Assembly (NCBI RefSeq): GCF_002216775.1
Contig: NZ_CP022315.1
Span: 744,001-808,000 of the forward strand
Reading direction: 5' to 3'
Source: Virgibacillus phasianinus
GTDB taxonomy: Bacteria > Bacillota > Bacilli > Bacillales > Amphibacillaceae
Length of the DNA stretch: 64,000 bases
Part shown: piece after piece, positions 5,173-26,462 of the stretch
Position numbering within the stretch: the stretch's first letter is position 1
Layout: every line of letters starts with the position of its first letter
Position numbers and translations under genes: made by a program
Notes under the pieces: generated by a model
Databases searched by the model: none
Seen by the model: only the letters and a program-made list of their open reading frames with translations
Told to the model about the DNA's origin: nothing

Positions 5173-6381
5173 TCACATCCCCATTTCGATTTCCTGTTTC
5201 TGTTCTTTATTCACTTTGTTTTGTTTCTCCACGTCCCATTTCTTCAGCTCAAAGTCATTTAATTCCTTGTCTGTTAATCCCCTGTCATATGCAACGATTC
5301 CATACTTTCCTTTATCATCATCAAAATCACTAAACCCGCTTGGTTGGCACCCTAACGAAACAGGACGGTGTTGCATTTCATACCAATACAGGCCATCTGA
5401 ATAGTTATTCATAGATACCTGCGTGTGTTCATTCTCACGTTCTTTGACCAGATCTGGTTCCATGACATCAATAAATTCAATAGCCGTTTCCCGTACATCT
5501 TGCAGCAACTTATTTTTATCTACCATTTCTTTCCCCTGTGTCCAATTCGCCAAATAAGGTAACGAATAGTCACTCGTATCAATATCGAAATAGGTTGCTA
5601 CCGCATATGCTGTCATTTCCGCCTGAAACTCTTTTTCCTCTGCTGGCATTGTTCTATAATCTGTATCCTTTGGATTATGCAGCTTGGCATGTGCTAATTC
5701 ATGCAGCAATGTTTTCACATTTTGCAGCTTACCATTACGTGGATTCAATCCAATATGGCCATTATTTTTATCACTAATAGGATAATAAAAGGCTCCTTTT
5801 GCTGCACCTAATTCTTCGAATGGTTCCCCAATTGAAACATTCAATTGTTCCCCAATTTTATACATGGATTCAAGCATCTCATCATAATGTTTCACGTCTC
5901 CTTCCATCCATTTGTTCGGAAAAATCTCCGGCAAATCACTTGCTTTTGCATTCGTTTGACTTACATCAAATACACTTCCAATAGAAAAGAAAAGTCTGCT
6001 TTTTCGCTCTTCCAGATCCCCTTTTTCAACCTGTTCTTTTTCTTGATCTGTCGCATATTTAAAGTTTTTCCACTTACCTTCTGCATTTTTAAACTTTGAT
6101 ACAGACTTGTTCGGTACAAGGATTTTAAGAGCCTTTTCTCCCTTCTGCACTTGAAACCCTTTCTCTTTCCAGAAGTTATAGCTTCCAACCGCTTGTGCTC
6201 CCTCAAACTGACTTTGAATCAAGGCAGAATTACGCAGCGAATACTTATGAAACTGCATCATAAATTCCAGATAGTCTGCCATTTTCTCTTCACTTTGAAA
6301 GTATGAATCAATGGAAGCATCCATCGTTTCTGTTAATTGCTTTACTTCTTCCCGTTTTTGTTCAAATGTTTTTCGTTTCAT
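5173..6381 (-). CDS. ArdC-like antirestriction / zincin metallopeptidase protein
   Basis: About 402 aa. The N-terminal part (about 1-140) matches the ArdC single-strand-DNA-binding domain, with the SLRNSALIQSQ and WKEKGFQVQKGEKALKILVP segments. A zincin-like peptidase domain follows with HELAHAKLH (HExxH, about 230) and a downstream E-x-x-A helix. The C-terminal domain (about 330-390) is unrecognised. The tail ends EIEMGM. The ATG at 6381 is preferred over the one at 6390 because AAAGGA lies 8 nt upstream. ArdC of plasmid pSa protects incoming single-stranded DNA from restriction and is reported to travel with it; the same role is inferred here. This is the last gene of the transfer operon. 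Confidence 0.85.
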   Translation of the reverse strand: MKRKTFEQKREEVKQLTETMDASIDSYFQSEEKMADYLEFMMQFHKYSLRNSALIQSQFEGAQAVGSYNFWKEKGFQVQKGEKALKILVPNKSVSKFKNAEGKWKNFKYATDQEKEQVEKGDLEERKSRLFFSIGSVFDVSQTNAKASDLPEIFPNKWMEGDVKHYDEMLESMYKIGEQLNVSIGEPFEELGAAKGAFYYPISDKNNGHIGLNPRNGKLQNVKTLLHELAHAKLHNPKDTDYRTMPAEEKEFQAEMTAYAVATYFDIDTSDYSLPYLANWTQGKEMVDKNKLLQDVRETAIEFIDVMEPDLVKERENEHTQVSMNNYSDGLYWYEMQHRPVSLGCQPSGFSDFDDDKGKYGIVAYDRGLTDKELNDFELKKWDVEKQNKVNKEQKQEIEMGM

Positions 6382-6405
6382 GCAGTTCATCCTTTCGTTA
6401 AAAAT

Positions 6406-6434
6406 AAAAAGGCTTCCCTTTTTAAAGAGAAGCC
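6406..6434 (-). terminator. Intra-operon terminator-like hairpin
   Basis: GGCTTC (6411-6416) pairs with GAAGCC (6429-6434). On the minus strand a TTTTTATTTTT run follows. It lies between the 6439-6978 gene and the ArdC-like gene, so readthrough or antitermination would be needed to express the latter fully. Confidence 0.5.
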
Positions 6435-6438
6435 ACCA

Positions 6439-6978
6439 TTACATATCCATATCATGTGTTTGTTCTTTTGTGTTCCGGTTGAACAATTGATCCCGCTTGC
6501 CTTGTAACCACGTTCGTTTGTTTTTTGCATCTAGCAACTCCCCGTTCGGAACGGTTGGATCATGTTCCAAAAAAGCAACATCCTGTATGGCAAGTTCTTT
6601 CGGACTTTTAGCCAGCACAAAGCCGGAGGAATTATCTTCTTCCCTATTCCAAAACGTAAGACATTCATCATAAAACTGATCTAAGACACGCTCTGTTCGA
6701 TGATCTTTCTCTGGGTTGTGACATTCCTCAAAACTTGCCGCATAATCCATCTCGCATGTCGCTGCAACATAGATGATGGTATCTTCCTTTACTTTCACAT
6801 ATCCATCATCGGACTTAACCGGCTGCATCTTCTGTTCTTGAATATAATCTTCCAATTCAACGATTGCTTCCATTCGTTCTTCCTGTGAAATATAATCAAA
6901 CTCCACATCCAATTCCAATCCCTGAATCAAATATACTTCACGGTTTCCAATATACAATTCTCTTTTATCAGCATCCAT
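6439..6978 (-). CDS. Unrecognised acidic ICE protein with HDMDM tail
   Basis: 179 aa from the ATG at 6978 (MDADKREL), which has AAAGGGTG about 10 nt upstream. The frame is actually open back to 7164, giving a 241-aa reading, but the extra part translates a hairpin and a neighbouring small gene. The protein is acidic with no membrane segment. LEDYIQEQKMQP and a later NREEDNSSGFVLAKSPKEL suggest a soluble domain of the kind found in ICE polyvalent proteins; I cannot name it. The carboxyl end is EQTHDMDM, the tail shared with other proteins of the operon. It probably acts in the cytosol with the transfer or establishment proteins. Confidence 0.7.
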   Translation of the reverse strand: MDADKRELYIGNREVYLIQGLELDVEFDYISQEERMEAIVELEDYIQEQKMQPVKSDDGYVKVKEDTIIYVAATCEMDYAASFEECHNPEKDHRTERVLDQFYDECLTFWNREEDNSSGFVLAKSPKELAIQDVAFLEHDPTVPNGELLDAKNKRTWLQGKRDQLFNRNTKEQTHDMDM

Positions 6979-7029
6979 GTAGTTTTCACCCTTTCTTAAT
7001 AGGAATAAAGGACTCCCAACCGGGAGCCC

Positions 7030-7164
7030 CCACATCTCCATATCATGGTTCATTTGCTTGTTTTTTGTTGATTCCTGTTGTTTCATCGCATCATATTTGA
7101 CTTCATCCTCTAGGATTTCCGCCGGATGCAAGGAAAAATCACTTTCCAGTAATTCAAGTGTCAA
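7030..7164 (-). pseudogene. Small ORF whose stop appears lost (reads into the next gene)
   Basis: A 44-codon reading from a TTG at 7164, coupled to the upstream gene by a TTGA overlap, ends in NHDMEM. The next codon is TGG at 7032-7030 where the sibling hairpin at 5165 has a TGA stop in the same place. The frame then runs through the hairpin and joins the 6439-6978 gene. Either a stop has mutated and made a fusion, or the fused 241-aa protein is the real product. The peptide itself is unrecognised. Confidence 0.5.
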
Positions 7165-7445
7165 CGGTTCTTGCCCATCAAACAGGGGGTTTGCAAGTGT
7201 TGATACATACCAGGCATCAACACTTCTTCCATGTGATATACATCCAGCAAATCCTCTATTGCATCAGACTCCTGCACATGGTGCTGATAGGGATTATACA
7301 AACAGACATATAAATCATCTTTGCCATCAGGATCTGGATTCCAGATTCTACGTTCATCCTCATTGCCCGTTTCCTCATCGGTCAGTACAAGTGTTGCCGG
7401 ACATGCTGAATCGAATGTTGAAACGATTTTATAGGCACTCTTCAC
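7161..7445 (-). CDS. Small unrecognised transfer-operon protein
   Basis: 94 aa, acidic, from a GTG at 7445 with a very strong AAAGGAGGTGAT site 7-9 nt upstream. It contains NEDERRIWNPDPDGKDDLYVCLYNPYQHH, rich in aromatic and acidic residues, and has no membrane segment. The stop overlaps the TTG of the next small frame (TTGA). No family recognised. Its place among ArdC, topoisomerase and relaxase genes suggests an accessory DNA-processing or establishment role, but that is context only. Confidence 0.7.
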   Translation of the reverse strand: MKSAYKIVSTFDSACPATLVLTDEETGNEDERRIWNPDPDGKDDLYVCLYNPYQHHVQESDAIEDLLDVYHMEEVLMPGMYQHLQTPCLMGKNR

Positions 7446-7500: not shown

Positions 7501-7514
7501 TGTTCCATAAGCTT

Positions 7515-10480: not shown

Positions 10481-11725
10481 TTACATTTCGTACCCGTCCA
10501 TAATATGATCAAACTCTCGTTGGTTCTTTTCTTTTTCGTAATCCTGAAACGTCTTTCGCATTGCTTTAGTTAATTTCACCATGGAAACATGGAACGACGT
10601 ACCGGGATAATATCGGTGAATCGAGTTCCAAGCATAATTAGATATTCCTTGTTCATGGAATCGTTTTTGCTGAAAAGCAACTGTCTTTTGTTCCTTATTA
10701 CAAGCACGCATTTCAGAAAGAACCGCATTCCCCATTCGCTTTTTCAGATCATCAAGCTTGTTTTGTTTGTACTCATCATAGTCACTTGCATCACCGTACA
10801 TTTCCTTCATCACATTTCCTTCATCATCCAGTCGTTGATGCAATTCGTTCATCTTATCTCCGTGAAATTGTTGCAAATAAATATCCGTTATTTCATCTAA
10901 ATACGGTCTTGCTTCATGAATAGACTGGTACCCGTACTTCCATTGGCGTTTGTCCGACGGGAGACGTTTCATCGCTTCTTGGAACAACTCATTCGTTTTA
11001 CGATAGGTTGATAAAGACACGTGTTTCTCCTTTTTCTCATGAACTGTTCCCCGAACAAGCTCATCAATTTTATTTCGTTCATGCGTTCGATCCATCAACA
11101 TATTCGCCACATTCGATTTCATTTTGTCCAGCGTTTTTGGTTTACGTTTTGCACGGTATTCTTCGTGCCAGGTATTACTTTCTTTATCCAATACTTTCAT
11201 TCGCTCACGTGTTGGATGCGGTTCCGTTGAAGCTACATGAACATGAATGTTATCCGTATTATAATGCAAAGATGCTGTCCAGATAGCGGAATTTTCCATT
11301 CCTTCTGACCTCAACACTATATCCATTGTGTTACGTACCACTTCCCGTATTTTCGTTTCATCCACTGTGTGTTCCTTGGCATGATAAATTCCTTGTTTTG
11401 CCAACCAGTCATTATCAAAACTAATCACATCCTGCCACATTGGTGACTCATGATGTTGTCCTGTTTGAAATTGTTTCTTTAAGTCTTTTTTCTCATCTAA
11501 ACTTAATGCATCTTTATTTTTGGTAAACAATTCCCCCCGCTTTTCTTCATCTCCCATGTAGTCCATAAAATCATGGAACACAAAAAAATCATCCTTATTA
11601 TTGGATGATTCGTTGAGATGAACATGACTTTTTGCATCATCACGATCCATATAATTAATATAATCATTAAATGCATTGGACTGAGATGTAACAAATTTAC
11701 TACGTAATACAACCGCAGGACTCAT
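10481..11725 (-). CDS. MobP2-family relaxase
   Basis: 414 aa, recognised as the MobP2/MobL group of Firmicutes relaxases by its N-terminus (SPAVVLRSKFVTSQSNAFND followed by YINYMDRDDA) and by the histidine motif NIHVHVASTEPHP (about 168-180), which would bind the metal. The tyrosines in the N-terminal YINY region are candidates for the nicking residue. It should nick oriT and lead the transferred strand into the recipient through the coupling protein. The C-terminus ends HIMDGYEM, loosely like the acidic-Met tails of neighbours. The AGAAAGG site is 12 nt from the ATG. Two relaxosome-like genes lie just upstream. Confidence 0.88.
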   Translation of the reverse strand: MSPAVVLRSKFVTSQSNAFNDYINYMDRDDAKSHVHLNESSNNKDDFFVFHDFMDYMGDEEKRGELFTKNKDALSLDEKKDLKKQFQTGQHHESPMWQDVISFDNDWLAKQGIYHAKEHTVDETKIREVVRNTMDIVLRSEGMENSAIWTASLHYNTDNIHVHVASTEPHPTRERMKVLDKESNTWHEEYRAKRKPKTLDKMKSNVANMLMDRTHERNKIDELVRGTVHEKKEKHVSLSTYRKTNELFQEAMKRLPSDKRQWKYGYQSIHEARPYLDEITDIYLQQFHGDKMNELHQRLDDEGNVMKEMYGDASDYDEYKQNKLDDLKKRMGNAVLSEMRACNKEQKTVAFQQKRFHEQGISNYAWNSIHRYYPGTSFHVSMVKLTKAMRKTFQDYEKEKNQREFDHIMDGYEM

Positions 11726-12836: not shown

Positions 12837-13862
12837 TTATCCTTGGACGACTTTTTGGGGATGATTATTATTCTTATCAGCTTTATTTTTTGGTACATCT
12901 TTTTTGGCATTTTTCCCATCAACTGCATTCGTTTCTTCGTTCTTCTGTTGCTGATCTTCCACCTTATTCTGTGTTAATGCATCAAGTTTTTTTTCGCGAT
13001 TTTTGTACTTGTCTTTGAGTTCCTTTATCTTTTCTTGAAGCTTTTCTATCTCTTCTTTTGCATCTTTAATGGCATCTTTTTTATGATTCATTTCCTTCTT
13101 GGTTTCAGACTGTTCTTCTTTTGTCTCGAATTTCATTTTTTGTCGCAACTCTTCTTTTTCTTGCTTTAATGTCATAATTAACTTTTCCTGGAAAGGGGTA
13201 CTTTCTTCCACTAGTTTTGAAAGTTGGTGCTTAATTCGTTTCATGTCTGCACGTATCGTCTCTTTTTGATACGCTTCTTCCGTCTTCGTAACCAATGATT
13301 GATTGGTATCAATTTTTCGGTAATCACCTACTAAGACAATTTCTTCTGGCTCTGGTATTTCCGATGCTGTTATCTCATTGGTTGCAGTTGTTGCTACATC
13401 ACTGTCGTGCATAACTTGTTTTTCATACGCTTGTTTCAGTATTTTTTCATCCCGATGTTCCGTTACAAACAACCCAATAGCCTGATAGGTTTTTGGAACT
13501 TGTTCAATTTGAATCACCATCAGGTTGACGGATTCATACACTTTGTTTACCGGATATGTTGCACCGGATTCCTTTCCTTTTGATTCAAAGGTAAATGTTG
13601 GTTCCACCACATCGGTTCCGGTATGAACGGTTTCCAATGTGACTTCCATCAATTGATTGGCAGGATTAAATTCCCAATCCCGAAGAACAACAGTTGTTTG
13701 ACTTAACCCACCAATAGATTCATTGAAGGGAGTTTGCTCAATAGTCGTATCATCATACATCCATGTTTTGGACGTAAAAAAAACGCCGAGAACAAGTCCA
13801 GCGACAATCATTATTCCGATATATACCTTGTTTTCGGTTCCCCGATTTAATTTATTTTTCAA
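12837..13862 (-). CDS. Conjugation-associated membrane protein with coiled-coil tail
   Basis: 341 aa from a TTG at 13862 behind GGAGTGGTGAT. One N-terminal membrane segment (about 12-30, KVYIGIMIVAGLVLGVFFTS) leads into a beta-rich extracytoplasmic domain (about 50-175). A long charged coiled coil (about 195-300, e.g. KEEIEKLQEKIKELKDKYKNREKK) and a Lys/Asn-rich end follow. No signal cleavage site is obvious. I do not know the family, but it directly follows the VirB1-, VirB8- and VirB4-like genes, so an envelope-spanning or wall-side component of the mating channel is likely. Confidence 0.7.
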   Translation of the reverse strand: MKNKLNRGTENKVYIGIMIVAGLVLGVFFTSKTWMYDDTTIEQTPFNESIGGLSQTTVVLRDWEFNPANQLMEVTLETVHTGTDVVEPTFTFESKGKESGATYPVNKVYESVNLMVIQIEQVPKTYQAIGLFVTEHRDEKILKQAYEKQVMHDSDVATTATNEITASEIPEPEEIVLVGDYRKIDTNQSLVTKTEEAYQKETIRADMKRIKHQLSKLVEESTPFQEKLIMTLKQEKEELRQKMKFETKEEQSETKKEMNHKKDAIKDAKEEIEKLQEKIKELKDKYKNREKKLDALTQNKVEDQQQKNEETNAVDGKNAKKDVPKNKADKNNNHPQKVVQG

Positions 13863-13878
13863 GTTATCACCACTCCTT

Positions 13879-15015
13879 TTATGACCCGTTACCTCCGGTT
13901 AAAAATGGTTTAACATAGGACATTGGGTTTATTCTTTTTCCATTCATAAGTATCTCAAAGTGCAAGTGTACACCCGTTGAAGACCCTGTTGAACCGACAC
14001 GCCCGATAACATCACCAGCTTTTACATCCGTTCCAACGGGAATGCCTTTTTGCATCATGTGTCCATATCGGGTATGCATGCCATTTCCGTGATCAATCAC
14101 TACAACCCATCCATAACCCTTTCCCATATTACTCAAGGAGGAACGAAACGTTGTACCTTGCGCCTTACTCACAATCACTTCCCCGTCCATAAATGCGGTT
14201 ATCGGCGTACTTCGTATACCGGCACTTGCTATGTCGATACCTGCATGAAAGGACGAGCAATTTCCACACCCTGAACGATACCCAAAACCAGACGTAATGT
14301 TTTTGGTATGTGGGGATACCCATGATTTATTACCGATCCCCCCCATATCAATGTGATCCACCGTCTTACAATTCATGATTAACCCACCAAACCTTTGAGC
14401 AATTTCTTTGGTGGTTGGTACCCAATGAACATTTAAATTGTTCGGGTCATTGGCCGCACCAATAGGAGCATACACACTCCCCAATTGTTCAATCGTTACC
14501 AAACCATCGACAATAATTCGGTTGTACAATGTAAGTGCCATCGACTCTAATCCTTCCTGCATCGTGTCAAACACATATAATCCACTACCATTCGGATTCA
14601 TTAGGCCGCCCGGATTATTTTTCAGTCGTACCGCGGATGATTTCCCCCAAGCTGTCTCATGCATCGCAACCGCTGCAAATAAAACAGGGTCAATACCTCG
14701 TTTTTCTGACAAAGCCCGTATTTCATCTCCATATCCTTTTAATGCACCAGAACGATCTTTATCGTGGAAAATGTTCTTCCACTTTTTCATGTTTATTTCT
14801 CCGGTTGGCGAACAAACATAGCCAGCTTTACTATCCGATTGTTGAGATTGTTGATGGTCTACACTGCCACTTAATACGCCAATGATCGCAAGCAAAATGG
14901 TTAATAAGATGACACCAACTAAAATTGTTACGGCGTTTGCACCAATAAATCCTGCAATCCATAGCATGATTTTTTTCTTCACCAAACCCTTTACCATGTT
15001 CCAAAGGTTTTTCAT
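13879..15015 (-). CDS. Two-domain cell-wall hydrolase of the conjugation apparatus (glucosaminidase + M23 peptidase)
   Basis: 378 aa from the ATG at 15015 (MKNLWNMVKG), chosen for the GGGGAGGAG site; a longer frame to 15084 overlaps the upstream gene. A strong membrane segment (about 25-50) anchors it. A glucosaminidase/lysozyme-like domain follows (KRGIDPVLFAAVAMHETAWGKS, then NNPGGL), and then an M23 endopeptidase with HAGIDIA, HTRYGHM and HLHFE zinc and catalytic motifs. Such VirB1-like proteins open the peptidoglycan locally for the mating channel; TrsG/TraG of pGO1/pSK41 play this role with a different domain set. Its start overlaps the VirB8-like gene (ATGA). Confidence 0.9.
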   Translation of the reverse strand: MKNLWNMVKGLVKKKIMLWIAGFIGANAVTILVGVILLTILLAIIGVLSGSVDHQQSQQSDSKAGYVCSPTGEINMKKWKNIFHDKDRSGALKGYGDEIRALSEKRGIDPVLFAAVAMHETAWGKSSAVRLKNNPGGLMNPNGSGLYVFDTMQEGLESMALTLYNRIIVDGLVTIEQLGSVYAPIGAANDPNNLNVHWVPTTKEIAQRFGGLIMNCKTVDHIDMGGIGNKSWVSPHTKNITSGFGYRSGCGNCSSFHAGIDIASAGIRSTPITAFMDGEVIVSKAQGTTFRSSLSNMGKGYGWVVVIDHGNGMHTRYGHMMQKGIPVGTDVKAGDVIGRVGSTGSSTGVHLHFEILMNGKRINPMSYVKPFLTGGNGS

Positions 15016-15755: not shown

Positions 15756-15757
15756 CG

Positions 15758-17695
15758 TTATAACCCCCCTTCAAACAATCGCAATTCTTCGTCTGATGCT
15801 TCAATGGATAGCATCAAATTTCCTACACCACTGATCGAAAGTAAACAATCCCCTTGTTGTAGCTGCGGTACATGGTCCAACTCACTTTCCGTCAGTTGTC
15901 CTTCAAAGATGGTTCGTAAAGCATCTAATGTGTTGGAATCTTGCTGCATCACAAATTTATATTGGGTGAGTTCAAACAACGTGCGGATTTTCGTCACGGT
16001 ATCTGTGTCGGAATGATCAGGCACAAAATCACGAATAGATTGACTCGCTAATACTAAACCACCAAAATATTTTCGAGCTTCACGAGCGAAGTCTGTTAAA
16101 AAGGAAACGGCCAACATATTTTCTGCATTGATAAGTCGATGTGCTTCATCAATCATAATCAGAAAACGCGTGGCATCATCTTCCAAAAATCTGTCATCAC
16201 GATACAACTTTTCTTTTTGTGGTGCACCAATCTGAATTAAGTTATCCCAAATGAGATTCAATACATTATACATCTGGGCATTAAATACACCTTTTTCCAA
16301 TCCCGTTAAACTACGAATCGAGAAAAAGATAACCTGTTCATTCGTGATGTCTGGGACAGTGGTATAACCGTTAAACAAATAACCATAACTATGCACCAGA
16401 TTGTCAATGACTAGTTCAATTTTTTCCAGTCGATTCACACGGGAAACTGATATTTCACGGCGTATGATTCTCCTTTCGGTGTTTTCATATAAATGTTCAC
16501 GGATAAATGCCAACAAATCACTAAAAACCGGATACTCTTCGTTCGTAAGTGTTGTAACACCAGTTGTTTTCATTTTTTTCATGAATCCCAGTGACTCATA
16601 AAACAACCGAAGAATCTTTTTAAATTCTTCACTTTCTTCTTGTGACGGATTCACGGCAAGAAAGGTATAGAATTTTGCTACTTTGGATATATGTTGCATA
16701 AAACTCAGTTCCTCATCCTTTTTTTTATCGTGATTGTCCTCTGCTTTGTATATTTGCAATGGATTAATAATGCCGTCACTCCCATCTAACCCTATCATTT
16801 GTCCTCGCACGGATTGCACCAATGTTTTAAATTCTCCTGTGACATCAAAGCCACGAATAAAATTGCCACGCGCTTCATTATCCATTAATAGCTTTTTCAG
16901 TGCGGTTGACTTCCCAGCGCCCATTTTTCCAACGACAACTGCATTATAAAATCGTCTTAATTTGTCATGATGAAATAAATCAAACAATACATTCCCACCT
17001 GTAAACGATGTTCCAAGGTAACTCCCTGTTCGATCATTTAACTCTGAAAAATGATACGGGAGTCCCGAGGCAAGGGTAATGGCAGGGAGCCCTTTTCCTT
17101 CTCGTTTATTCGGAAAGGCAAGTTGCTGTTCATAAGGTAAAAACAATGCTTGCCACTCCCAGAAGGACTCATTGAGGAAAACCTGCCCTTTAAATCCAAT
17201 AGATTGCAACTTCGAAATCGTTCGATTCACCTTTTGTTCTAATTCCGATATCGTTGGGGAAGCAACAAATAAACGAATATGCATTAATTTAATAACCTCT
17301 CCTGCTTCACTTATTTTTTGATATAAATCTTCCATTTCCTTATAGCCACGTTGGGCATCCATTCGTTCCGATTCCTGGTTAGCACTTCGAAAACGTACAT
17401 CTTGTTCCACCATGCTTTTGTTAATTGCACTGATAGTTTCGTCCTGATTCATCGTAGAAATATCGGTTACAACTGTTACATCATACATGGACATCAATTT
17501 ATCCATCCAAAGAACCTCGACATTAGAAGGGTAATCCCAAACATGGATACAGGTTTCATACCCATCCCCTTTTTTTATATATTTATCTTTAAAAGATATA
17601 CCGCCTTGTGGTTGAATAGCTGTTACAAAATCTTTATCCAATGGCGGACGTTTTGGTTTGTCCTCTGTTTTTGTTTGTTGTTTTTGCAACATCAT
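15758..17695 (-). CDS. VirB4-family conjugation ATPase (TrsE/TraE-like)
   Basis: 645 aa. The N-terminal half carries the region upstream of the ATPase core, with the segment RLFVASPTISELEQKVNRTISKLQSIGFKG split by hyphen here at about 145-175. The Walker A motif is GKMGAGKSTALKK (about 256-268), and a Walker B-like segment RFLIMIDEAHRLI lies at about 516-528, followed by LASQSIRDF. These are hallmarks of VirB4 ATPases that power channel assembly and substrate transfer at the cytoplasmic face. It follows a TrsD-like gene and precedes the VirB8-like gene, the same order as in pSK41/pGO1 transfer regions. The start is ATG with AAAGG upstream. Confidence 0.92.
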   Translation of the reverse strand: MMLQKQQTKTEDKPKRPPLDKDFVTAIQPQGGISFKDKYIKKGDGYETCIHVWDYPSNVEVLWMDKLMSMYDVTVVTDISTMNQDETISAINKSMVEQDVRFRSANQESERMDAQRGYKEMEDLYQKISEAGEVIKLMHIRLFVASPTISELEQKVNRTISKLQSIGFKGQVFLNESFWEWQALFLPYEQQLAFPNKREGKGLPAITLASGLPYHFSELNDRTGSYLGTSFTGGNVLFDLFHHDKLRRFYNAVVVGKMGAGKSTALKKLLMDNEARGNFIRGFDVTGEFKTLVQSVRGQMIGLDGSDGIINPLQIYKAEDNHDKKKDEELSFMQHISKVAKFYTFLAVNPSQEESEEFKKILRLFYESLGFMKKMKTTGVTTLTNEEYPVFSDLLAFIREHLYENTERRIIRREISVSRVNRLEKIELVIDNLVHSYGYLFNGYTTVPDITNEQVIFFSIRSLTGLEKGVFNAQMYNVLNLIWDNLIQIGAPQKEKLYRDDRFLEDDATRFLIMIDEAHRLINAENMLAVSFLTDFAREARKYFGGLVLASQSIRDFVPDHSDTDTVTKIRTLFELTQYKFVMQQDSNTLDALRTIFEGQLTESELDHVPQLQQGDCLLSISGVGNLMLSIEASDEELRLFEGGL

Positions 17696-17710
17696 GTTCC
17701 CAACCTTTCG

Positions 17711-18376
17711 TTATATTTTGGTATTTTGATTGTTTAACAGAAATAGAATTTGTTTCTTTTTTTCCCGGGATAATTCCTCCACTGGAAATGCTCGCTGCAT
17801 TCCCTGAATACAAGCATGTTTTCGGTCAAGTAAAGCATCCTTATCTTCGGCATAGACAAAAAAGAAGAACTCCCGATTGGAACGTTCTCGCTCTAAAAAT
17901 TTAAATTCATAGATTTTTTGTTCAATATACTGCAATCGAATCGGACTCGTTGTTTGTTCCTTCTTCTTCTCCCAATAGGCGAGTTGCGGACTAGTATTTG
18001 CCGGAAAGTTGAGAATCACCTCCTTATACGAGTGAAAATAACTTCTTAAGAACTGAGTTCGTTTCAATAACAAATAATTCAAATCAGCTTCATTTAATGC
18101 ATCAATGTTTTGTGTCTGTATTTGAAGAATATCCATAACCCCTTCCTTCATAAGAATGTGGTCATCATATATTTGAAGAAATGGAACAATTTCAGGTGTT
18201 TGCCGTAAGAGTTTTTGTTTCGTATTTGCTTTTTTATTTGGTCGATCTTGCTTTTGTGGCTTGCGACGGAACCATTTCCCCTTTTTCATCCCGTGCTTTT
18301 TTATCTCCGACTCTACTCCATTTAAGGTTTGATTATTTGGTTCATCTTTACCTGATACTACTTCCAAATGATTCAT
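17711..18376 (-). CDS. TrsD/TraD-like conjugation protein
   Basis: 221 aa, soluble. A basic N-terminus (KKGKWFRRKPQKQDRPNKK) is followed by a domain with EIVPFLQIYDDHILMKEGVMDILQIQTQNIDALNEAD, similar to the N-terminal region of VirB4-type proteins, and a helical C-terminal half. In the pGO1/pSK41 transfer regions a protein of this size (TrsD/TraD) lies between the PrgI-like and VirB4 genes, exactly as here, which is the main reason for the call. It probably partners the VirB4 ATPase. It overlaps the PrgI-like gene end by 29 nt. Confidence 0.65.
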   Translation of the reverse strand: MNHLEVVSGKDEPNNQTLNGVESEIKKHGMKKGKWFRRKPQKQDRPNKKANTKQKLLRQTPEIVPFLQIYDDHILMKEGVMDILQIQTQNIDALNEADLNYLLLKRTQFLRSYFHSYKEVILNFPANTSPQLAYWEKKKEQTTSPIRLQYIEQKIYEFKFLERERSNREFFFFVYAEDKDALLDRKHACIQGMQRAFPVEELSREKKKQILFLLNNQNTKI

Positions 18377-18713
18377 CAGGATTTGGCCTCCTTTGTGCTT
18401 TAATTTTCTCTCGAAGATAAATATTTTGCTGTTTGTGTAAATCTATTGGATGGAATGTTCCTTTTTTATGCCGGAACAATAGAATCAGCGATTCATAATT
18501 CTTTTTCTTTGGATTACTGCCCGATAGCATCAGCAAATAAATCATTCCGACAATTGCAACTGCAAAGTAGGGAATGATAAACACACTGTGCACTAAATCC
18601 TGTAATATCGTTAACAATAAAAGAGAGCTGATCAGCAATATGACCAGCTCTCGCATTACAAGCCCAAGAATTTTCGGCTTTGCTTTAATCTCTTTCGGAA
18701 TCTCGTATTTCAT
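18348..18713 (-). CDS. PrgI/TrsC-like conjugation membrane protein
   Basis: 121 aa. Two membrane segments (about 17-39 and 46-66) lie close together near the N-terminus, followed by a cytoplasmic tail with NYESLILLFRHKKGTFHPIDL. This is the size and layout of PrgI/VirB3-like proteins that sit next to VirB4 in Gram-positive type IV systems. Both ends overlap neighbours: the start lies inside the end of the TrbL-like gene and the stop inside the TrsD-like gene, which shows tight coupling. Confidence 0.75.
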   Translation of the reverse strand: MKYEIPKEIKAKPKILGLVMRELVILLISSLLLLTILQDLVHSVFIIPYFAVAIVGMIYLLMLSGSNPKKKNYESLILLFRHKKGTFHPIDLHKQQNIYLREKIKAQRRPNPDESFGSSIR

Positions 18714-20553
18714 TACCTCTCAACCCCTTTTTCAGAACCTTTGTGTGTTTCGGTTTGGCTATCCTACCTTTGAATTCACTGATTTTTTGTCCTACATCAT
18801 AGCCGGTATTGTGTGCCCTTCCCAGATAGTGACTGGCACGTTGCACCGTCCGGTTTCCACCAATTAATGTATGCCTCGATTTTGGATGGATATGTCCGGT
18901 ACTTGCCCCGGTATTCACTTTCGGTTGGGAAACAGGTGGCGTTGGCGTCCGACCAACCGCATTTTCTGATGAATGTAGCATGTTCGGCATCGGTTCACGT
19001 TGACTTGTTGACGATTTTGGTTTTGTTGATTGTTGATTCAATTGCTTTGTATTTAACGATTGACCGTTGCTTGGTGACGGTGGTTGTACAGGATTTTTAC
19101 TATTAACAGAAGTAGAAAATTGTCCTTCTCCTTTTCGGGAATGAGGTGCTGCATCTTTATAGGAAGGCATTGGTTTCACATCTTGATTTCTGCGCAGTCC
19201 TTTCGTTAAACCAACACCACCTGCAATAGCACCACCAGCGCCTTTTCCTCCTATTTTAACAAGCTTCTTACCAGTTTCAGCAGTCATCCTTCCACTTGCG
19301 CCAGCCATTTTTCCACCAGCATAAGCTCCCATCATCGCTTGCCATCCTGAACGTAACCCTGCATCAACACCCATGGTTCGTTGGATAATATCTGGTGCAT
19401 CAATCAATGCCCATGCACCGGCAATTAAAAGGAGCATGACACCGACAATACCAATATGACGTTCTAAGCCGTTTGCCCATTGGGCATAGATGATGAACAT
19501 CCGCAATAACACCATCATCACAAAAATAACAGCAAACGTATTAACAATTTCCATCAAAACCTTTTTCAGGCGTTGTCCGCCTGTTAAATCCGTTACAGCA
19601 GTAAACATGGCGTATAGTTGATGAAAGGCTAAATCAAACATAGCACGCCCAATTTTAATCGTCGTTATCATCAAAGCAAAAGCAGTTACCGCAAGTGTCG
19701 CAATCGCAATCCCCCAATTGATGTGATAACGGTAGTAGCTTTGTTGTCCAAGATTTGTTGCTGGAACTGTATTTTCATTTAACTCAACAATGCGAGTACC
19801 TCCCTCGCCGGTAGAAATCATTCTATGTTTTAAAAAATACTCCCCAGTCTTTGATAAATTTTCAACCCAAGGTTCGGATGCCCAACCAAACCAATGTTTC
19901 GCTTCATATACATCTAGTTTTTCATTTATTTCAATCATAATAGGGTTTTTTAGCTGATTCCCAAAGGTGTAGTCCGTGGTACCAATATCCTTTGTTTTTG
20001 GATGTGGTGGATGTGGAAGTATACTTTTATTCCCTACCATGGTTTCTTCACTTAATCCACTTGCATAGTTAAACCCACTGTCCACGTAGTATTTAACGTC
20101 TGCAATATTACGTTTCAATACGTCATCTGAAAAGGTTCCCGGTTTATCTAATTCGTCTAACCCCACATTTAATAAATCATCCATCATGGTCATAAGTGTG
20201 GGAAGAATGACAATCACACTGATTGCAATTAAAATGTGCATCACAATTTCATTTCGCTTTTCGATTTTGTTTAACATAAACATAAACCCAAGAACAGTTA
20301 TCGAAACAACAAATAATGCCACTGCAACCGGCTGCATCGTTTTCACAAAATCCTGCATGGCAGGATTATCGTATAATCCACCAATAGTAACAACAGTAGT
20401 CGCCACACCTTCAACCCAATCATTAATCCAAACTAATAACTGAATAATCCCCCAGGCAATATTCCGTAATAAATCATCATACAACCATCCACTATATAAA
20501 TCCAAAATGGCCGATAGATCTTCATACAACTTTTTTATAAATGCCTTATCCAT
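18685..20553 (-). CDS. TrbL/VirB6-like polytopic channel protein
   Basis: 622 aa from the ATG at 20553 with GAGGTG upstream. Several membrane segments are visible: about 72-95 and 102-125, then about 290-312, 340-360 and 375-395. A glycine/alanine-rich stretch follows (GAYAGGKMAGASGRM), and a long, hydrophilic, proline- and serine-rich cytoplasmic tail (about 470-620). This is the layout of TrbL/TrsL-type or VirB6-like proteins, which form the membrane pore of the mating channel. It is the first of the tightly packed channel block that continues with the PrgI-like, TrsD-like and VirB4 genes. Confidence 0.85.
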   Translation of the reverse strand: MDKAFIKKLYEDLSAILDLYSGWLYDDLLRNIAWGIIQLLVWINDWVEGVATTVVTIGGLYDNPAMQDFVKTMQPVAVALFVVSITVLGFMFMLNKIEKRNEIVMHILIAISVIVILPTLMTMMDDLLNVGLDELDKPGTFSDDVLKRNIADVKYYVDSGFNYASGLSEETMVGNKSILPHPPHPKTKDIGTTDYTFGNQLKNPIMIEINEKLDVYEAKHWFGWASEPWVENLSKTGEYFLKHRMISTGEGGTRIVELNENTVPATNLGQQSYYRYHINWGIAIATLAVTAFALMITTIKIGRAMFDLAFHQLYAMFTAVTDLTGGQRLKKVLMEIVNTFAVIFVMMVLLRMFIIYAQWANGLERHIGIVGVMLLLIAGAWALIDAPDIIQRTMGVDAGLRSGWQAMMGAYAGGKMAGASGRMTAETGKKLVKIGGKGAGGAIAGGVGLTKGLRRNQDVKPMPSYKDAAPHSRKGEGQFSTSVNSKNPVQPPSPSNGQSLNTKQLNQQSTKPKSSTSQREPMPNMLHSSENAVGRTPTPPVSQPKVNTGASTGHIHPKSRHTLIGGNRTVQRASHYLGRAHNTGYDVGQKISEFKGRIAKPKHTKVLKKGLRGNEIRDSERD

Positions 20554-20581
20554 CTGTTTCACCTCTTTTATATAAAAGAAT

Positions 20582-21547: not shown

Positions 21548-23824
21548 TTAAGACGTTGCCTTTTCACGCATTTTTTTAGCTTTTTCATCTTCCTTATTTT
21601 CATCTGACTGTTCACCTTTTTGTTGTTCCTTATTTTCCTGATTCGTCTCTATTTGTTGCTCTATTCGTTGCGTTGCTTTCTTCTCCCATATTTCCATCAC
21701 TTCTTCTGGTAAATACGTTTGTAACGTCCCCATCACCTTTAGATGCAGTCTTGAAAAATAAGGGTGGTACACCATAAAACTCAAGTAATGCAAAAATGAC
21801 CAATTATCCATGTCTTGCAGCAATTGTTTCATCATTTCCTCGTCCGGATTTCCTTGACTTTGTTCAATTTGTAATATGCTTCGTTTATACCGGTGAAACG
21901 CCTTTTCTGTCATCACATCTGCCATTCTAAAGAATACATCCTCGTTGGATTTTGCGGAATAGACTATGTTTTGCAGGTCCATGTCATGGTACTTATCTGA
22001 CATGATTGGCAGCATCATAATCGAATGATTGGTATCAAATTCCTCCGCTAAATATTCATACCGGAACTTATGACTGGTTTCGTCTTTATTAAAAATAGGC
22101 TTTGGTTCTATCTTTCTCCGTTTTTTATCCTGACGTTTATTGACTCGAATAACCACAGACTGCCCTTCCTTTAATCGCATTAGTTCATCCGATGTTAAGA
22201 GTGCGCGCTCCTTGGTTGATTCACTATGCGACTTATCAAAGGAATGATAATCCCCACTTCGGCTCACATCCGTAATCGTTTTCGTTCCCAGCATACTGGA
22301 ATAATGCTCTGCCGTATTTTTATCTTCAGTCAATATATATATCTGGTTGGAACAGTTCCCAATAATCGTATCGGATTCTTCCCCATATGCTGATTTCACT
22401 TGGGAATAGGCTTGAATGATTAAGTGATAACGAAATCCTCGTCCGGCACCTACTGTTACCATGCTTGCCATTCCATCAATAGGCGGCATATTGCCAAATT
22501 CATCAAGTATAAAGTGAACATGTCGATTCATCTTACCATTCTTGCCTTTGGTTGCTTTCTCCGAATTTACGCGGTACAACTGACTAATGAAAATACTTGC
22601 CAGTACATCATTCGATTTATCCGAATCGGGCGTTGCAATGTAAACGGCAACGGGTTTCTTCCCGAAACCAATATCTGTTAAATCCAAGCTGTTATGTGAA
22701 GTGACTTTTGCGTTTGGTTCCAGTGTAAATATTTGCAGCTTATCCATCGCAACACTAAAAATGCTTCCTCTCGTATTACCAGTAGAGAAATTACTCGTTG
22801 CATACATCATTCGTGCAGGATCATTCTCACCCCGTGCTTGAAAAAAGTCATCCAATGCATTATTTCCTTCTTCGTCATTGTCACTACCTTTGCTTGATAG
22901 GAAATTCGCAACAGAATACATGGTCACACTTTCTTCTTTGCCGATTTTCACCATATCTTCTGTCAACGCCAAAATGATGGCAGTCACAAGTGACTTCGCA
23001 CTGTTTGACCAAAACGGATCTTTTGCATTCGGATTGTGATACAAACTGAATGCCACACTGTTCGCATATTTTTGCGCATCAGCTACCCTGCCCAGCTTCC
23101 ATGAATCTATTACTAGCTGTAATGGATTAAATCCCATGCCCATGTCATGCTGAATCAAATTAAACACGTGAACATCATAGCCACGTGCTTTTAACGTTTC
23201 ATAGGATGCTCCTGCAAGCTCCCCTTTTGGGTCATTAATTACCATGGATGGTTTCTCTTTTGCTCTGCTTTGTACATCCATCATCGGAACAACAAATGTT
23301 TCCCCTTTACCAGAACGGGTAATCCCGATTACCATGGTGTGTACCGGTGCATCATCAATTAACAAGTGATACGTGTTACCCTGGTGTAAACCACCAATAA
23401 TCGTACCGCCCTTTCCGTTATACTCCTTTTTAGAAGCCGGTATAATCTGATATTGTTTTTTCATGTTTTTCACAGACTCGAATTCATTCGTTCCATGCTG
23501 CCCATGATTAATAGATTGATAGTTCATTTTAATGTTGTACAATAACTTCATAACACTGATACCAACCACAACATAAAATCCAACATAAAACCCGATCCAT
23601 TCTTTCTGAAAGATAAAAAGGTAATGCCAATCCACCGAGAAGGACTTAAAATTTATTTTTTCAGGATGCCTAGCGAATGTCTCCAGCAGGTGTAGCACTT
23701 GCTGAAAGAAATGTAACAGGAAATTCGCAAAGAAAAATCCAACAATAACTATAGATGCAACTACTATGCTGATAACTTTCCAATTACTTAATCGTTCTGT
23801 CAATGACATTTGATGCGTATTCAA
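21548..23824 (-). CDS. VirD4/TraG-family type IV coupling protein (TrsK/TraK-like)
   Basis: 758 aa from a TTG at 23824 with GGGGTGAT upstream. Two N-terminal membrane segments (about 14-38 and 72-96) precede a cytoplasmic ATPase. Walker A is GITRSGKGETF (about 168), followed by INDPKGEL; Walker B is HFILDEFGNMPPIDG (about 437), followed by IIQAYSQ. A long charged C-terminal tail rich in Glu, Gln and Lys (about 690-758) could recruit substrates. Coupling proteins select the relaxosome and other proteins and feed them into the channel. This is the receptor that should read any secretion signal carried by its cargo. Confidence 0.93.
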   Translation of the reverse strand: MNTHQMSLTERLSNWKVISIVVASIVIVGFFFANFLLHFFQQVLHLLETFARHPEKINFKSFSVDWHYLFIFQKEWIGFYVGFYVVVGISVMKLLYNIKMNYQSINHGQHGTNEFESVKNMKKQYQIIPASKKEYNGKGGTIIGGLHQGNTYHLLIDDAPVHTMVIGITRSGKGETFVVPMMDVQSRAKEKPSMVINDPKGELAGASYETLKARGYDVHVFNLIQHDMGMGFNPLQLVIDSWKLGRVADAQKYANSVAFSLYHNPNAKDPFWSNSAKSLVTAIILALTEDMVKIGKEESVTMYSVANFLSSKGSDNDEEGNNALDDFFQARGENDPARMMYATSNFSTGNTRGSIFSVAMDKLQIFTLEPNAKVTSHNSLDLTDIGFGKKPVAVYIATPDSDKSNDVLASIFISQLYRVNSEKATKGKNGKMNRHVHFILDEFGNMPPIDGMASMVTVGAGRGFRYHLIIQAYSQVKSAYGEESDTIIGNCSNQIYILTEDKNTAEHYSSMLGTKTITDVSRSGDYHSFDKSHSESTKERALLTSDELMRLKEGQSVVIRVNKRQDKKRRKIEPKPIFNKDETSHKFRYEYLAEEFDTNHSIMMLPIMSDKYHDMDLQNIVYSAKSNEDVFFRMADVMTEKAFHRYKRSILQIEQSQGNPDEEMMKQLLQDMDNWSFLHYLSFMVYHPYFSRLHLKVMGTLQTYLPEEVMEIWEKKATQRIEQQIETNQENKEQQKGEQSDENKEDEKAKKMREKATS

Positions 23825-24012: not shown

Positions 24013-25041
24013 TTATAGGTCCATTTCATGTGTTTGTTGGAATGATTTTTTTCGCTGGTTCAGTTTCCTATAATGACGTTCAAACGCATCACGATTATGT
24101 TGCAAATTCTCATTTGCATCCTTACAATCTGGTGAGTATTCAAATAGAGACCAATTTATTTTTTCCGCTTCTAAAACATCAACTATATCTCGTGTCGCTT
24201 TCCATCCAGCTGTATCATCATCCATCGCAATGACCGTGTGTTTATCTGAAAAAAGTTCCTGATGTTCACGGACATAATCTTTAACTTTTCTTGTTTTAGA
24301 TGCACCTGTTAAAGCAATCAAGCCTACATTTTCATCAATTTCACGAAAAGAGAGCGCATCTAATATCGATTCACTGATAACGACTGTTTCAGCGTTGTTC
24401 GGAATGTCCATAAAAAAATCCCTCGTTTCTTTAGAGGGATTTAAAATAAGCTGTATTTCTTTTGGTTCTATGCTTTCGTCGATACTGGAACGGAACAACA
24501 CTCTGTTTAAGGTGTTATCTTCTCCATACAGTGGAAACATTAAATTTCGTTTGCACACCCAGCTATTATTGGAATAATCTTTTCCCAGTAACGGTGTTGC
24601 TTTGTGAAAAATATGCTGTCCAATATCCTCATGCTGTAAATCTGCAATAAATGATCTTGCTACTTGTTTGGATAGCCCACGATAACCATCATCTAGCGTT
24701 TCACTTTTTAGACCGGTTTTCGCAAATGACAAAACCCGTGTGGTCCAATCCAAGGCTTCTCGTTGTTTAGGTGTCAAATTCGGATACTGCTTTTCCATCT
24801 TTTGTTCATAGGCTGCCACGTTCTCCTTTTCATGAAATTCAAGCATCATTCGGGAACCGCAATGATTTTCACGATTACACTGAACAAAGCGCTGATTGTT
24901 CTTATACATGAACGCTTCCTGTTCATTACATTCAGGGCAATTACAAATGTAATAGTGCCCTTTATCTTCCGCATTCAATTCATCCAATGCATTTTCGATA
25001 TTTTGAAAAACAAGTTTCTTATAGGCATTCTGCTTGTTCAT
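24013..25041 (-). CDS. DNA primase-like protein (CHC2-type zinc finger + Toprim)
   Basis: 342 aa from the ATG at 25041 (AGGGG 8 nt upstream). An N-terminal zinc finger (YYICNCPECNEQEAF ... VQCNRENHCG) resembles the CHC2-type primase finger. A Toprim domain follows with VVISESILDALS and AMDDDTAGWKA (about 220-285). There is no helicase part. It would prime complementary-strand synthesis on transferred DNA; plasmid primases of RP4 and ColIb are known to be sent into recipients. The C-terminus ends QQTHEMDL, the tail shared with other operon proteins. The start overlaps the preceding gene by 23 nt. Confidence 0.82.
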   Translation of the reverse strand: MNKQNAYKKLVFQNIENALDELNAEDKGHYYICNCPECNEQEAFMYKNNQRFVQCNRENHCGSRMMLEFHEKENVAAYEQKMEKQYPNLTPKQREALDWTTRVLSFAKTGLKSETLDDGYRGLSKQVARSFIADLQHEDIGQHIFHKATPLLGKDYSNNSWVCKRNLMFPLYGEDNTLNRVLFRSSIDESIEPKEIQLILNPSKETRDFFMDIPNNAETVVISESILDALSFREIDENVGLIALTGASKTRKVKDYVREHQELFSDKHTVIAMDDDTAGWKATRDIVDVLEAEKINWSLFEYSPDCKDANENLQHNRDAFERHYRKLNQRKKSFQQTHEMDL

Positions 25042-25825
25042 GTCCAACGCCCCTAGAAGTCAATTTTTTCTGAAATTGCTTTAAAACCGGTACAAGCACT
25101 TGTTCGTTTATTTTCCCATCCGTATTTAAAACGTCCCCGGCAAATAACAAATCATCGAACCTTGTATAAAATGTTTCGATTAATTGATTGTGTAGTTCAT
25201 AGACTGCCTTAAAACCATGCATGGAGATAAATCCTTCATCAAATAAACGCATCTCAAAGGATTGATACGTATCATTTTTTATCATGAGCACATCTATCCG
25301 TTGTTTCTGCAATGATTGAAAGTTTGTTGTAACATGCGTGACAAATTGTGCAAAGGATTCCTCATTGGCCATATACGTTTCCAATCGGGATCTTACAAAA
25401 CCTTGAATTTCTGTATCCTTGGATGATTCATTCACTGATTCAGATTCGCTAGTTTTTTTATTCATGGAAAATGACTTATGGCCACCCAATGCTTGAATAC
25501 CGTTTTGTTGGTTGTTCTGCTTATTTCTCTCTTTCGCCACTTGATTCTTTCTAAAACTCTGTTCAATTTCACCTGCAAACCGCTGAATAACAACATCATA
25601 GGTGGTACGAATTGCCACCATAACATATTCCATTTCCGCGTAAATACTAGTTTCAATGAAAGGCAAAATTCCGTCATACAATTGTTTTAACTGTTCGTCC
25701 GATAATTCCAGTGTCTCTATTCGTTTTTCGGAGTATGCTATTACTTTTTGGAGTCTTGTTTTAAATGCCTGGAAGGGTTTATCTGGAATTATTTTTGTCA
25801 ACAACGTATCTTTCATTTTTTTCAT
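25019..25825 (-). CDS. Unrecognised helical ICE protein
   Basis: 268 aa from the ATG at 25825, fixed by GGAGGTGA 5-6 nt upstream; an ATG-initiated frame further out reads through a hairpin and the neighbour's tail and is not believed. It is soluble and helix-rich, with a polar low-complexity middle (NKKTSESESVNESSKDTE) separating two helical halves. No known motif. It lies between the NDMEM-tailed coiled-coil gene and the primase gene, overlapping the latter, so a replication or establishment role with the primase is plausible but unproven. Confidence 0.7.
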   Translation of the reverse strand: MKKMKDTLLTKIIPDKPFQAFKTRLQKVIAYSEKRIETLELSDEQLKQLYDGILPFIETSIYAEMEYVMVAIRTTYDVVIQRFAGEIEQSFRKNQVAKERNKQNNQQNGIQALGGHKSFSMNKKTSESESVNESSKDTEIQGFVRSRLETYMANEESFAQFVTHVTTNFQSLQKQRIDVLMIKNDTYQSFEMRLFDEGFISMHGFKAVYELHNQLIETFYTRFDDLLFAGDVLNTDGKINEQVLVPVLKQFQKKLTSRGVGHEQAECL

Positions 25826-25844
25826 TTCTTTCACCTCCATAAAA

Positions 25845-25860
25845 GGACTTCCACCGGAAG
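25845..25860 (-). terminator. Small hairpin of the operon's recurring family
   Basis: CTTCC-ACC-GGAAG with TTTTATGG after it on the minus strand, right after the stop of the gene ending at 25863. It is nearly identical to the hairpin at 5156-5169. Confidence 0.45.
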
Positions 25861-25862
25861 CC

Positions 25863-26462
25863 CTACATTTCCATGTCGTTTTCTTGATTTTTATCTTTCT
25901 TGTTCCCAAGCTTCATTAACCTTTCCTGCTCCAAACCTTTCTCAATCTGATTTACTTTTTCTTTTTGCACAGGCGTTAAATCCATTTCTTTTATTTCATC
26001 CAAAACTTCTCTTTTTAACATATAGACTTTCTCGTATCCATGTTTTGCTTCAAAATCTTTCATTTCTTGCTCCCCTTTTTTGCTTTCATCAGGGGGTGTT
26101 TCCTTTTCACTTGGTTCTTTGTTCAATGACTTCAATACCTCTTGCTTATAAGCATCCTTATAATTGGTTTCTTCTTTTGTAAATTGTAACTTTTGCAGAA
26201 TACCCTGTTTATAAGCCTGCTTAAATTGTTCAGCTTGATTCATTTGATTATCCTGTTCTTTCTGTACTTCCTCTTCCAAATTTTTAAGCCTTTCCTTTGG
26301 ATACTTCGATTTCAGCACAGTATCTTGATATAGTGTTTCTAATTTCTCTCGTTTCCATTTGTATCCTTCATTATCTGGATACAATACTTCCTTTTCCTTT
26401 GCCGATAACAACGCCGTATACCTGTTTGCTAATTCCTTTTCAAAATCGTGTGTAACTGGCAT
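25863..26462 (-). CDS. Coiled-coil ICE protein with NDMEM tail
   Basis: 199 aa, almost wholly charged and helical. A loose internal repeat is visible (AYKQGILQKLQ at about 82 and AYKQEVLKSLN at about 103). Lys/Glu-rich linkers separate segments. No catalytic motif or membrane segment. The start ATG follows GGAGAGGATGGGG. The carboxyl end, DKNQENDMEM, carries the short acidic-Met tail found also on the ArdC-like protein, the primase and two unknowns. Function unknown; a structural or substrate-adaptor role is a guess. Confidence 0.7.
   Translation of the reverse strand: MPVTHDFEKELANRYTALLSAKEKEVLYPDNEGYKWKREKLETLYQDTVLKSKYPKERLKNLEEEVQKEQDNQMNQAEQFKQAYKQGILQKLQFTKEETNYKDAYKQEVLKSLNKEPSEKETPPDESKKGEQEMKDFEAKHGYEKVYMLKREVLDEIKEMDLTPVQKEKVNQIEKGLEQERLMKLGNKKDKNQENDMEM

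Follow-up and report, generated by a model that had tools for sequence, protein, structure and literature searches.

The window, by which we mean the whole 64-kb stretch of DNA that was analysed, carries an element with pLS20-type MOB_L features: a MobL/MobP2 relaxase, a CD1115-family VirD4 protein, a pLS20_p028 protein and VirB4. Known pLS20-type/MOB_L elements, for which conAn antitermination is described, have the same relaxase, VirD4 and pLS20_p028 channel protein, together with intergenic hairpins, and the accessible portions of the reports on them describe neither a shared C-terminal tail nor protein cargo (PMC5313138, PMC8955417, PMC8708921). Several proteins of the element end in similar short peptides, referred to below as tails. 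The genes and hairpins concerned are as follows.

5146 to 5172, minus strand: terminator-like hairpin with a T run, directly 3' of the ArdC stop codon
5173 to 6390, minus strand: ArdC-like anti-restriction metalloprotease (Pfam ArdcN, M78 and DarA_C), ending EIEMGM (encoded at 5176-5193)
6406 to 6438, minus strand: hairpin with a T run, 3' of the p6439 stop
6439 to 6978, minus strand: p6439, 179 aa, no assigned function, ATG start at 6978, ending THDMDM (encoded at 6442-6459)
7033 to 7445, minus strand: disrupted gene for a 143-aa tailed protein, found by tblastn with the intact sister protein; the frame shifts near 7180 and the stop is lost; NHDMEM at 7033-7050
10481 to 11725, minus strand: MobP2/MobL (MOB_L) relaxase (Pfam MobL 4e-100, NCBIfam MobP2 2e-124), ending DGYEM (10484-10498)
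12837 to 20562, minus strand: transfer channel genes, all without a tail (VirB4, VirB8-like, M23/VirB1-like, TrbL/pLS20_p028-like and others)
13879 to 15084, minus strand: M23/VirB1-like channel protein, no tail
15012 to 15755, minus strand: VirB8-like channel protein, no tail
15758 to 17695, minus strand: VirB4 channel protein, no tail
18685 to 20562, minus strand: TrbL/VirB6 (pLS20_p028-like) channel protein, no tail
21548 to 23824, minus strand: VirD4-type coupling protein, CD1115 family (NCBIfam NF045973, 4e-141), itself without a tail; candidate tail receptor
24013 to 25047, minus strand: TOPRIM primase-like protein (Pfam Toprim_2), ending THEMDL (encoded at 24016-24033)
25841 to 25862, minus strand: hairpin, 3' of the coiled-coil stop
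25863 to 26462, minus strand: coiled-coil protein, ending ENDMEM (encoded at 25866-25883)

A scan of the window against Rfam at the gathering threshold gave no match. The ends EIEMGM, THDMDM, THEMDL, ENDMEM and DGYEM, as read in a preliminary description of this DNA, are all present, and their codons differ synonymously, as it had also noted. Its further claim that NHDMEM ends a small protein does not stand: because TGG follows and the frame reads through into p6439, no protein of the window ends with this peptide. Sister elements carry the 143-aa protein as one intact gene with the end FDMEM* (TGA). In the ArdC-like protein, AlphaFold pLDDT is below 50 across residues 382-405; the model of p6439, built on an alignment of 3 sequences, had a mean pLDDT of 47 and was set aside. 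The description's statement that channel proteins are untailed was borne out for the VirB4, VirB8-like, TrbL/VirB6, VirD4, lipoprotein and PrgI-like proteins of the window, and the operon's cytosolic proteins of the topoisomerase, Mrr-like and ribbon-helix-helix types likewise lack the tail.

None of 367 host genes ends in [DE]M[DEG][MLI], so that the 4 of about 24 genes of the element that do so are unlikely to have arisen by chance, with the reservation that the motif was picked post hoc. A generic, motif-free test on the window alone gave a marginal p of about 0.08. Judged from the sequences, the strength of tail sharing comes from related elements. Sister elements keep the tail on ArdC, on p6439 (homologues ending QDMDM and AEMEM), on the 143-aa protein and on the coiled-coil protein (EQEMEM, EQEMDM, EQVMDM). 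The primase tail is lost in the nearest sisters, and sister relaxases end DGYE, without the DGYEM of the window. Absence from sister orthologues, which had been named in advance as an outcome that would speak against a secretion signal, is thus found for these two families but not for the other four.

The wider comparison covered 80 related elements with a MobP2 relaxase and a pLS20-type channel. Here ER is the top C-terminal dipeptide (76/1353 genes, or 20/396 protein clusters when each is counted once), ending the relaxase, ArdC, TOPRIM primase, Fic, PemK and PBECR4 proteins; in the host genome it ends 1 of 367 genes. The pattern [DE]-hydrophobic-[DE]-[RML]-COOH, abbreviated [DE]h[DE][RML], occurs on 52 relaxases, ArdC proteins, primases and accessory proteins, and at the last residue it is found on 21 of 44 ArdC, 5 of 35 TOPRIM, 7 of 80 relaxases and 19 of 563 other proteins. 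It is enriched only at offset 0, the exact C-terminus, and is absent from all 684 channel, relaxosome-accessory, topoisomerase and Mrr proteins of the related elements (0/138 for relaxosome accessory proteins alone), so that an equal frequency among channel proteins, the other outcome that had been set against the proposal, was not observed. A hydrophobic residue stands at -3 in 64% of ArdC and TOPRIM proteins, versus 22% of channel and 41% of host proteins; the tails are acidic at -2 and -4, yet have only 1-2 acidic residues. Although 22 of the 80 relaxases end in ER, only the 7 fit the strict pattern, and some tails are shifted by one or two residues (ERD, ERA, DLERS). The tailed families include ArdcN, M78, MPTase-PolyVal, TOPRIM/DUF3991, ART-PolyVal, PBECR4, LPD18/25 and ArdA, and they match the polyvalent-protein cargo set (PMC5512222). 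Tails are enriched in homologues, as had been expected, but the motif proposed at first, [HN][DE]M[DE][ML], is one lineage's dialect of a wider, element-specific tail.

The type of tail varies between elements and agrees within one element. DMDM/EMEM is the type of the window clade, while the ER type is found in Bacillaceae and Staphylococcus elements, on four proteins in Staphylococcus p1. Enterococcus pHTbeta has an FEME-type tail on ArdC, ART and DUF3991 and FEIE on zeta; clostridial types include WDLEL and HDMEV. In a sampled clostridial element, four non-homologous proteins end EDEWDLEL, EDEYDLEI, QDEWDHEL and DDDWDYEL and are similar only across the final 8-10 residues. Among 37 representatives with relaxase identity below 60%, tails covary between relaxase and ArdC (p=0.0015) and between ArdC and primase (p=0.0007), and 1 of 42 control pairs reached p<0.05; relaxase-primase covariation is weak unless a one-residue shift is allowed (p=0.13 without it). 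When each element was tested separately for clusters of tails with a generic BLOSUM threshold, only a few elements reached p<0.05 and sharing was often marginal; this test has low power, and one version of it drew on a null pool that contained tails.

Other ArdC proteins provide a further comparison. In 25 IMG/VR ArdC contigs without conjugative features, just 1 of 663 genes has a tail. The ArdC of pLS20 is expressed in the recipient (PMC8708921), and its sequence has no tail; tailed proteins of pLS20 end KGLER or NSRER. The IMG/VR loci L147-L151, L160-L162 and L208-L218 have a conjugative-type gene order, on which grounds a phage origin was rejected, and a MobP2 search of viral contigs returned one locus.

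We suggest that the tails probably recruit proteins for type IV transfer, as a C-terminal signal specific to each element. The window tails would be a local version of a signal that Bacillota conjugative elements with a VirD4 protein use, typically laid out as acidic, hydrophobic (often at -3), acidic, and R, M or L at the extreme C-terminus, and borne on a linker that is flexible and often rich in Lys/Arg. Such a signal would mark the relaxase along with recipient-useful proteins such as ArdC, ArdA, primase, Fic, ADP-ribosyltransferase and PemK/ToxN/zeta-like proteins. The tail looks like an address label because it is element-specific, common to unrelated proteins and missing from the channel. 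That dialects differ from element to element makes it probable that the tail coevolves with a receptor. The best candidate is the VirD4-type coupling protein, by which tagged proteins would be passed into the type IV channel alongside the relaxase-DNA complex. The shared tail, its exact C-terminal position, its absence from the channel, its covariation and its absence from phage-contig and recipient-expressed ArdC are observed here; from them we infer that the tag would bind VirD4 and direct transfer into recipients. More tentatively, and at somewhat less than even odds, each element may possess an address code, read by its cognate VirD4, that sends anti-defence proteins, primases and toxins with the relaxase and keeps co-resident cargo separate.

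The original suggestion of a recruitment tag is upheld in that relaxase, primase and ArdC tails are shared and covary by element, but the closest sisters of the window do not keep its primase and relaxase tails, and one of the five cases first listed is a broken gene. The relaxase is the expected obligate substrate of type IV transfer. Its fit to the strict pattern (7/80) and the DGYE ends in the window's sisters were counted against a recruitment signal, as were the loss of the primase tail in those sisters, the weak relaxase-primase covariation, the often marginal within-element statistics, the displaced tails and the overlap of some relaxase ER codons (GAAAGG) with a possible ribosome-binding site.

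Could the tails instead be a by-product of the DNA? A hairpin directly follows most window tails, which had raised the possibility that tail and hairpin spread together as a cassette; alternatively, a ribosome-binding site or terminator might incidentally encode the tail. In some relaxases, the GAAAGG of the ER tail indeed lies 7-12 bases upstream of the next start and overlaps a possible ribosome-binding site. However, the ArdC of one related element (L032) has the tail but no hairpin, evidence against a cassette; many internal terminators are normal in pLS20-type conjugation operons (PMC8955417); synonymous variation is seen, with all six Arg codons in use for ER; and what the tails of different elements have in common is peptide, not DNA. 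A Shine-Dalgarno artefact as the general cause of ER was rejected on codon usage and on the frequent position of these tails right before terminators, though it may apply to some relaxases. An origin at the DNA or RNA level is highly improbable, and largely refuted already. Chance combined with composition bias, that is, tails that are acidic and disordered in AT-rich mobile elements of Gram-positive bacteria, would fit the marginal window-only statistics and the frequency of acidic residues at C-termini, but it is already refuted by the position-exact enrichment, by the 0/684 genes of untailed families in the same elements, by covariation with controls and by the separately sampled clostridial element.

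At the protein level, the tail might belong to a common homologous C-terminal module and have no function beyond the fold. Domain recombination does occur in ArdC and the other polyvalent proteins, and ArdC-type proteins of the same genus have longer C-termini in common; yet the four clostridial proteins agree only at their ends, linkers are unalignable and predicted to be disordered, and relaxase and TOPRIM folds are unrelated, all of which makes a module very unlikely. A donor-side docking or stability tag, recognised without transfer by a shared partner such as a relaxosome scaffold, chaperone, protease or adaptor that holds the tailed proteins together or sets their amount, has precedent in degrons and adaptor-binding tails, which are also C-terminal tags common to non-homologous proteins. 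We regard it as unlikely: toxins and anti-restriction enzymes (Fic, ART, PemK, ToxN, ArdA) are implausible components of a donor scaffold, the relaxosome accessory proteins are untailed, tails differ by element while the host proteolysis machinery does not, and the recipient-made pLS20 ArdC lacks the tail.

How would a recruitment signal compare with known systems? The Agrobacterium VirE2/VirF Arg motif and the Legionella Dot/Icm signal are short C-terminal signals read via a VirD4/DotL-type coupling protein (PMC10025392). Like the tails, such Gram-negative signals lie at or near the extreme C-terminus of non-homologous substrates; unlike them, the tails are on Gram-positive conjugation cargo, span 4-8 residues, are anchored at the last residue, vary between elements and include the relaxase. 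The Legionella E-block is Glu-rich, and the tails may resemble it, though with only 1-2 acidic residues; the Legionella signal also has an important hydrophobic residue at -3 or -4. Paired chaperones like IcmS/IcmW were not seen alongside the tailed proteins. The Agrobacterium motif requires several Arg in the last ~20 residues, whereas the six-residue window tails have none and ER-class tails have a single, terminal Arg, on linkers that are in part Lys/Arg-rich. Folded C-terminal modules recognised by VirD4 also occur on unrelated effectors, namely XVIPCD in Xanthomonas and BID in Bartonella (BID also on some relaxases), but each of these is a domain of at least about 100 residues, and here only a terminal peptide is in common. 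SSB, ParA/B and PsiA/B of the F plasmid enter the recipient via VirD4-type receptors, like the relaxase, and the available part of that account describes no common terminal peptide for them (PMC8406263); TSA/TSB, the relaxase translocation signals of F and R1, are internal folded TraI domains, unlike a terminal tail. Polyvalent proteins, which have the same domain repertoire as the tailed set (ArdC, ArdA, MPTase, TOPRIM, ART-PolyVal, PBECR, LPD), were proposed by Iyer et al. (2017) to transfer with DNA, and the accessible part of that study contains no shared C-terminal signal (PMC5512222). No earlier report of such a tail was found in the open-access literature searched.

Whether proteins besides the relaxase are exported in Gram-positive conjugation, and how they are selected, is an open question according to a 2025 review (PMC12857230). 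A covarying tail provides a simple rule by which candidate cargo can be named from sequence, including many proteins with no assigned function; it also points to a receptor and to a possible delivery tag. If the recruitment signal is real, polyvalent anti-defence proteins would be linked to a defined entry route; under an address code, the cargo proteins of thousands of elements could be read from sequence.

The element in the window is an integrated pLS20-type element, since its relaxase is of the MobL/MobP2 type, its coupling protein of the CD1115 family and its large membrane protein of the pLS20_p028 family. All five tail peptides listed in the preliminary description are encoded there, and four are true C-termini:

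5173-6390, ArdC-like protein, ending EIEMGM
6439-6978, minus strand, 179-aa protein (p6439), real start the ATG at 6978, ending THDMDM
24013-25047, primase, ending THEMDL
25863-26462, coiled-coil protein, ending ENDMEM

The C-terminus of the relaxase reads DGYEM. The fifth peptide, NHDMEM, is not a protein end, as the next codon is TGG and there is no stop. A 143-aa protein of a sister element aligns to the window across two reading frames, with FDMEM as its end at this very site; the window gene for this tailed protein (7033-7445) is therefore broken by a frameshift, with its stop lost. The homologue in sister locus L036 carries a stop immediately ahead of FDMEM, cutting off the tail. For the 24 C-terminal residues of the window ArdC the structure prediction has low confidence, which fits an exposed flexible tail. 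One end of the element borders a putative gene for a type I restriction-modification methylase subunit, directly upstream of which lies a putative serine-recombinase gene (846-3463). Beside the transfer genes, at their upstream end, are genes for a putative MerR-type regulator, mercuric-reductase-like flavoprotein and ArsR-type regulator (27592-32237); all these neighbours are named from sequence resemblance.

Conservation in sister elements, as the preliminary description had predicted, holds for four proteins: ArdC (EMEM, KEMGL, IDMEMM, VDMDMM), p6439 (DMDM, EMEM), the 143-aa protein (FDMEM) and the coiled-coil protein (EQEMEM, EQEMDM, EQVMDM). It fails for the primases, which lack the tail in the fetched sister elements, and for the relaxases, which end DGYE. 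The 4.07-Mb chromosome of the Bacillaceae-like host (contig C1 of genome G000) also holds another related conjugative element, near 1.02-1.06 Mb (~1019528-1057527; loci L043 and L044). There ArdC has the end VDMDMM and a 374-aa protein the end HAFEM; some stretches of the channel region found no match, and the element may be rearranged.

A relaxase-alignment scan, taking one genome per species, gave 80 loci with 1353 genes. With no motif chosen beforehand, the commonest C-terminal dipeptide was Glu-Arg (ER; 76/1353 genes), still first with each protein cluster counted once (20/396 clusters). ER ends 22 of 80 relaxases, 22 of 44 ArdC proteins, 9 of 35 DUF3991/TOPRIM proteins and many single proteins; by Pfam, tailed proteins include ArdC/M78, TOPRIM, Fic, PemK, PBECR4 and LPD25. 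The terminal pattern [DE]-hydrophobic-[DE]-[RML] is carried by 52 proteins (relaxase, ArdC, TOPRIM and others). Not one of the 684 channel, relaxosome-accessory, topoisomerase or Mrr-like proteins has it, bearing out the suggestion that channel proteins lack the tail. Among proteins of at least 90 aa, 51 of these matches fall exactly at the last residue (offset 0), with few further upstream. Among 367 host genes, one ends in ER and none like the window tails. Hydrophobic residues stand at position -3 in 64% of ArdC and TOPRIM proteins taken together (channel 22%, host 41%) and Arg at position -1 in 44% (channel 3%, host 8%); in the same proteins, Lys/Arg make up 25% of residues -25 to -6, versus 15% of the whole protein.

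The shared tails differ from element to element.

Tail types by element
B. badius plasmid: ER on five proteins, including relaxase and Fic
Planococcus: EYER/EMER/EIER
Staphylococcus argenteus p1: ER on four proteins
Enterococcus pHTbeta: [FY]EME on ArdC, ADP-ribosyltransferase and DUF3991 protein; FEIE on zeta-like protein
Listeria pLIS25: SLSR/SIKR/GITR
pNP40: DLEM and DFEI
Clostridial elements: HDMEV, HELEV, HDMEL, EMEV; GEIEL on an ArdA-LPD18-DUF4316 protein

The GEIEL protein (L216, 17423-19252) joins ArdA, DUF3846, LPD18 and DUF4316, the last close to the tail. Loci L147-L151, L160-L162 and L208-L218 are IMG/VR contigs filed as viral, yet their gene order is of conjugative type (ArdC-type polyvalent, topoisomerase-like and transfer-like proteins), and they look like clostridial integrative elements. 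Randomly sampled Bacillota genomes, a separate sample as regards the motif question, yielded one element with tails EDEWDLEL, QDEWDHEL, DDDWDYEL and EDEYDLEI (p=0.008) on ArdC-YodL, Fic and two unknown proteins, which are non-homologous, alike in the last eight to ten residues only, and differ in their tail codons. Beside ArdC-type genes, a ToxN-family protein ends DPER and a 223-aa protein KPER (L293 6143-6805, L291 10257-10928). A pLS20 371-aa protein directly upstream of VirD4 (L145 15746-16861) ends KGLER and is a candidate cargo or adaptor.

Could these ends have another origin? The Fisher p of 5e-41 ignores relatedness and is not to be read at face value. Covariation meets much of this objection to raw counts: among 37 representatives (relaxase identity <60%), tails of unrelated proteins match better within one element than between elements (relaxase-ArdC p=0.0015; ArdC-TOPRIM p=0.0007; relaxase-TOPRIM p=0.13, or 0.003 with a one-residue shift allowed), and 1 of 42 control pairs with channel proteins fell below 0.05. 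A ribosome-binding-site artefact could be behind some relaxase ER ends; it is ruled out as the general cause, because ER tails use all six Arg codons and many directly precede terminators. A spreading DNA cassette with a hairpin had also been proposed. The hairpins 3' of the window tails look like intrinsic terminators, and the L032 ArdC ends EMEM without a hairpin; pLS20-type conjugation operons contain more than 20 intrinsic terminators, bypassed via conAn antitermination (PMC8955417). In the MobP2 loci VirB4 proteins have near-constant C-termini (GGA/GGL) and plasmid SSB proteins end DDDLPF, so conserved ends arise in other families too, for separate reasons.

The tail is not simply a mark of cytosolic proteins, since topoisomerase, Mrr-like and ribbon-helix-helix proteins of the same operons are cytosolic and untailed. 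ArdC proteins encoded within the conjugation operon are tailed. Negative controls agree with the expected enrichment over the same families outside such elements: 25 IMG/VR contigs with phage-like ArdC have the tail on 1 of 663 genes, and short ArdC proteins without nearby conjugative genes in the sampled genomes have none. The pLS20 ArdC, an establishment gene product expected transiently in the recipient (PMC8708921), likewise ends without a tail.

The open-access literature searched held no report of the tail, nor do the searched passages of the polyvalent-protein (PMC5512222) and MOB_L relaxase (PMC5313138) papers mention one. C-terminal recruitment signals are known in Gram-negative type IV systems (PMC10025392), and the tails may be analogous. 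The main rival would make the tail a docking or stability tag on the donor side. On the simplest explanation the tail would be a C-terminal signal that recruits proteins for type IV transfer; the VirD4-type coupling protein would probably read it, so that tagged proteins would pass through the type IV system.
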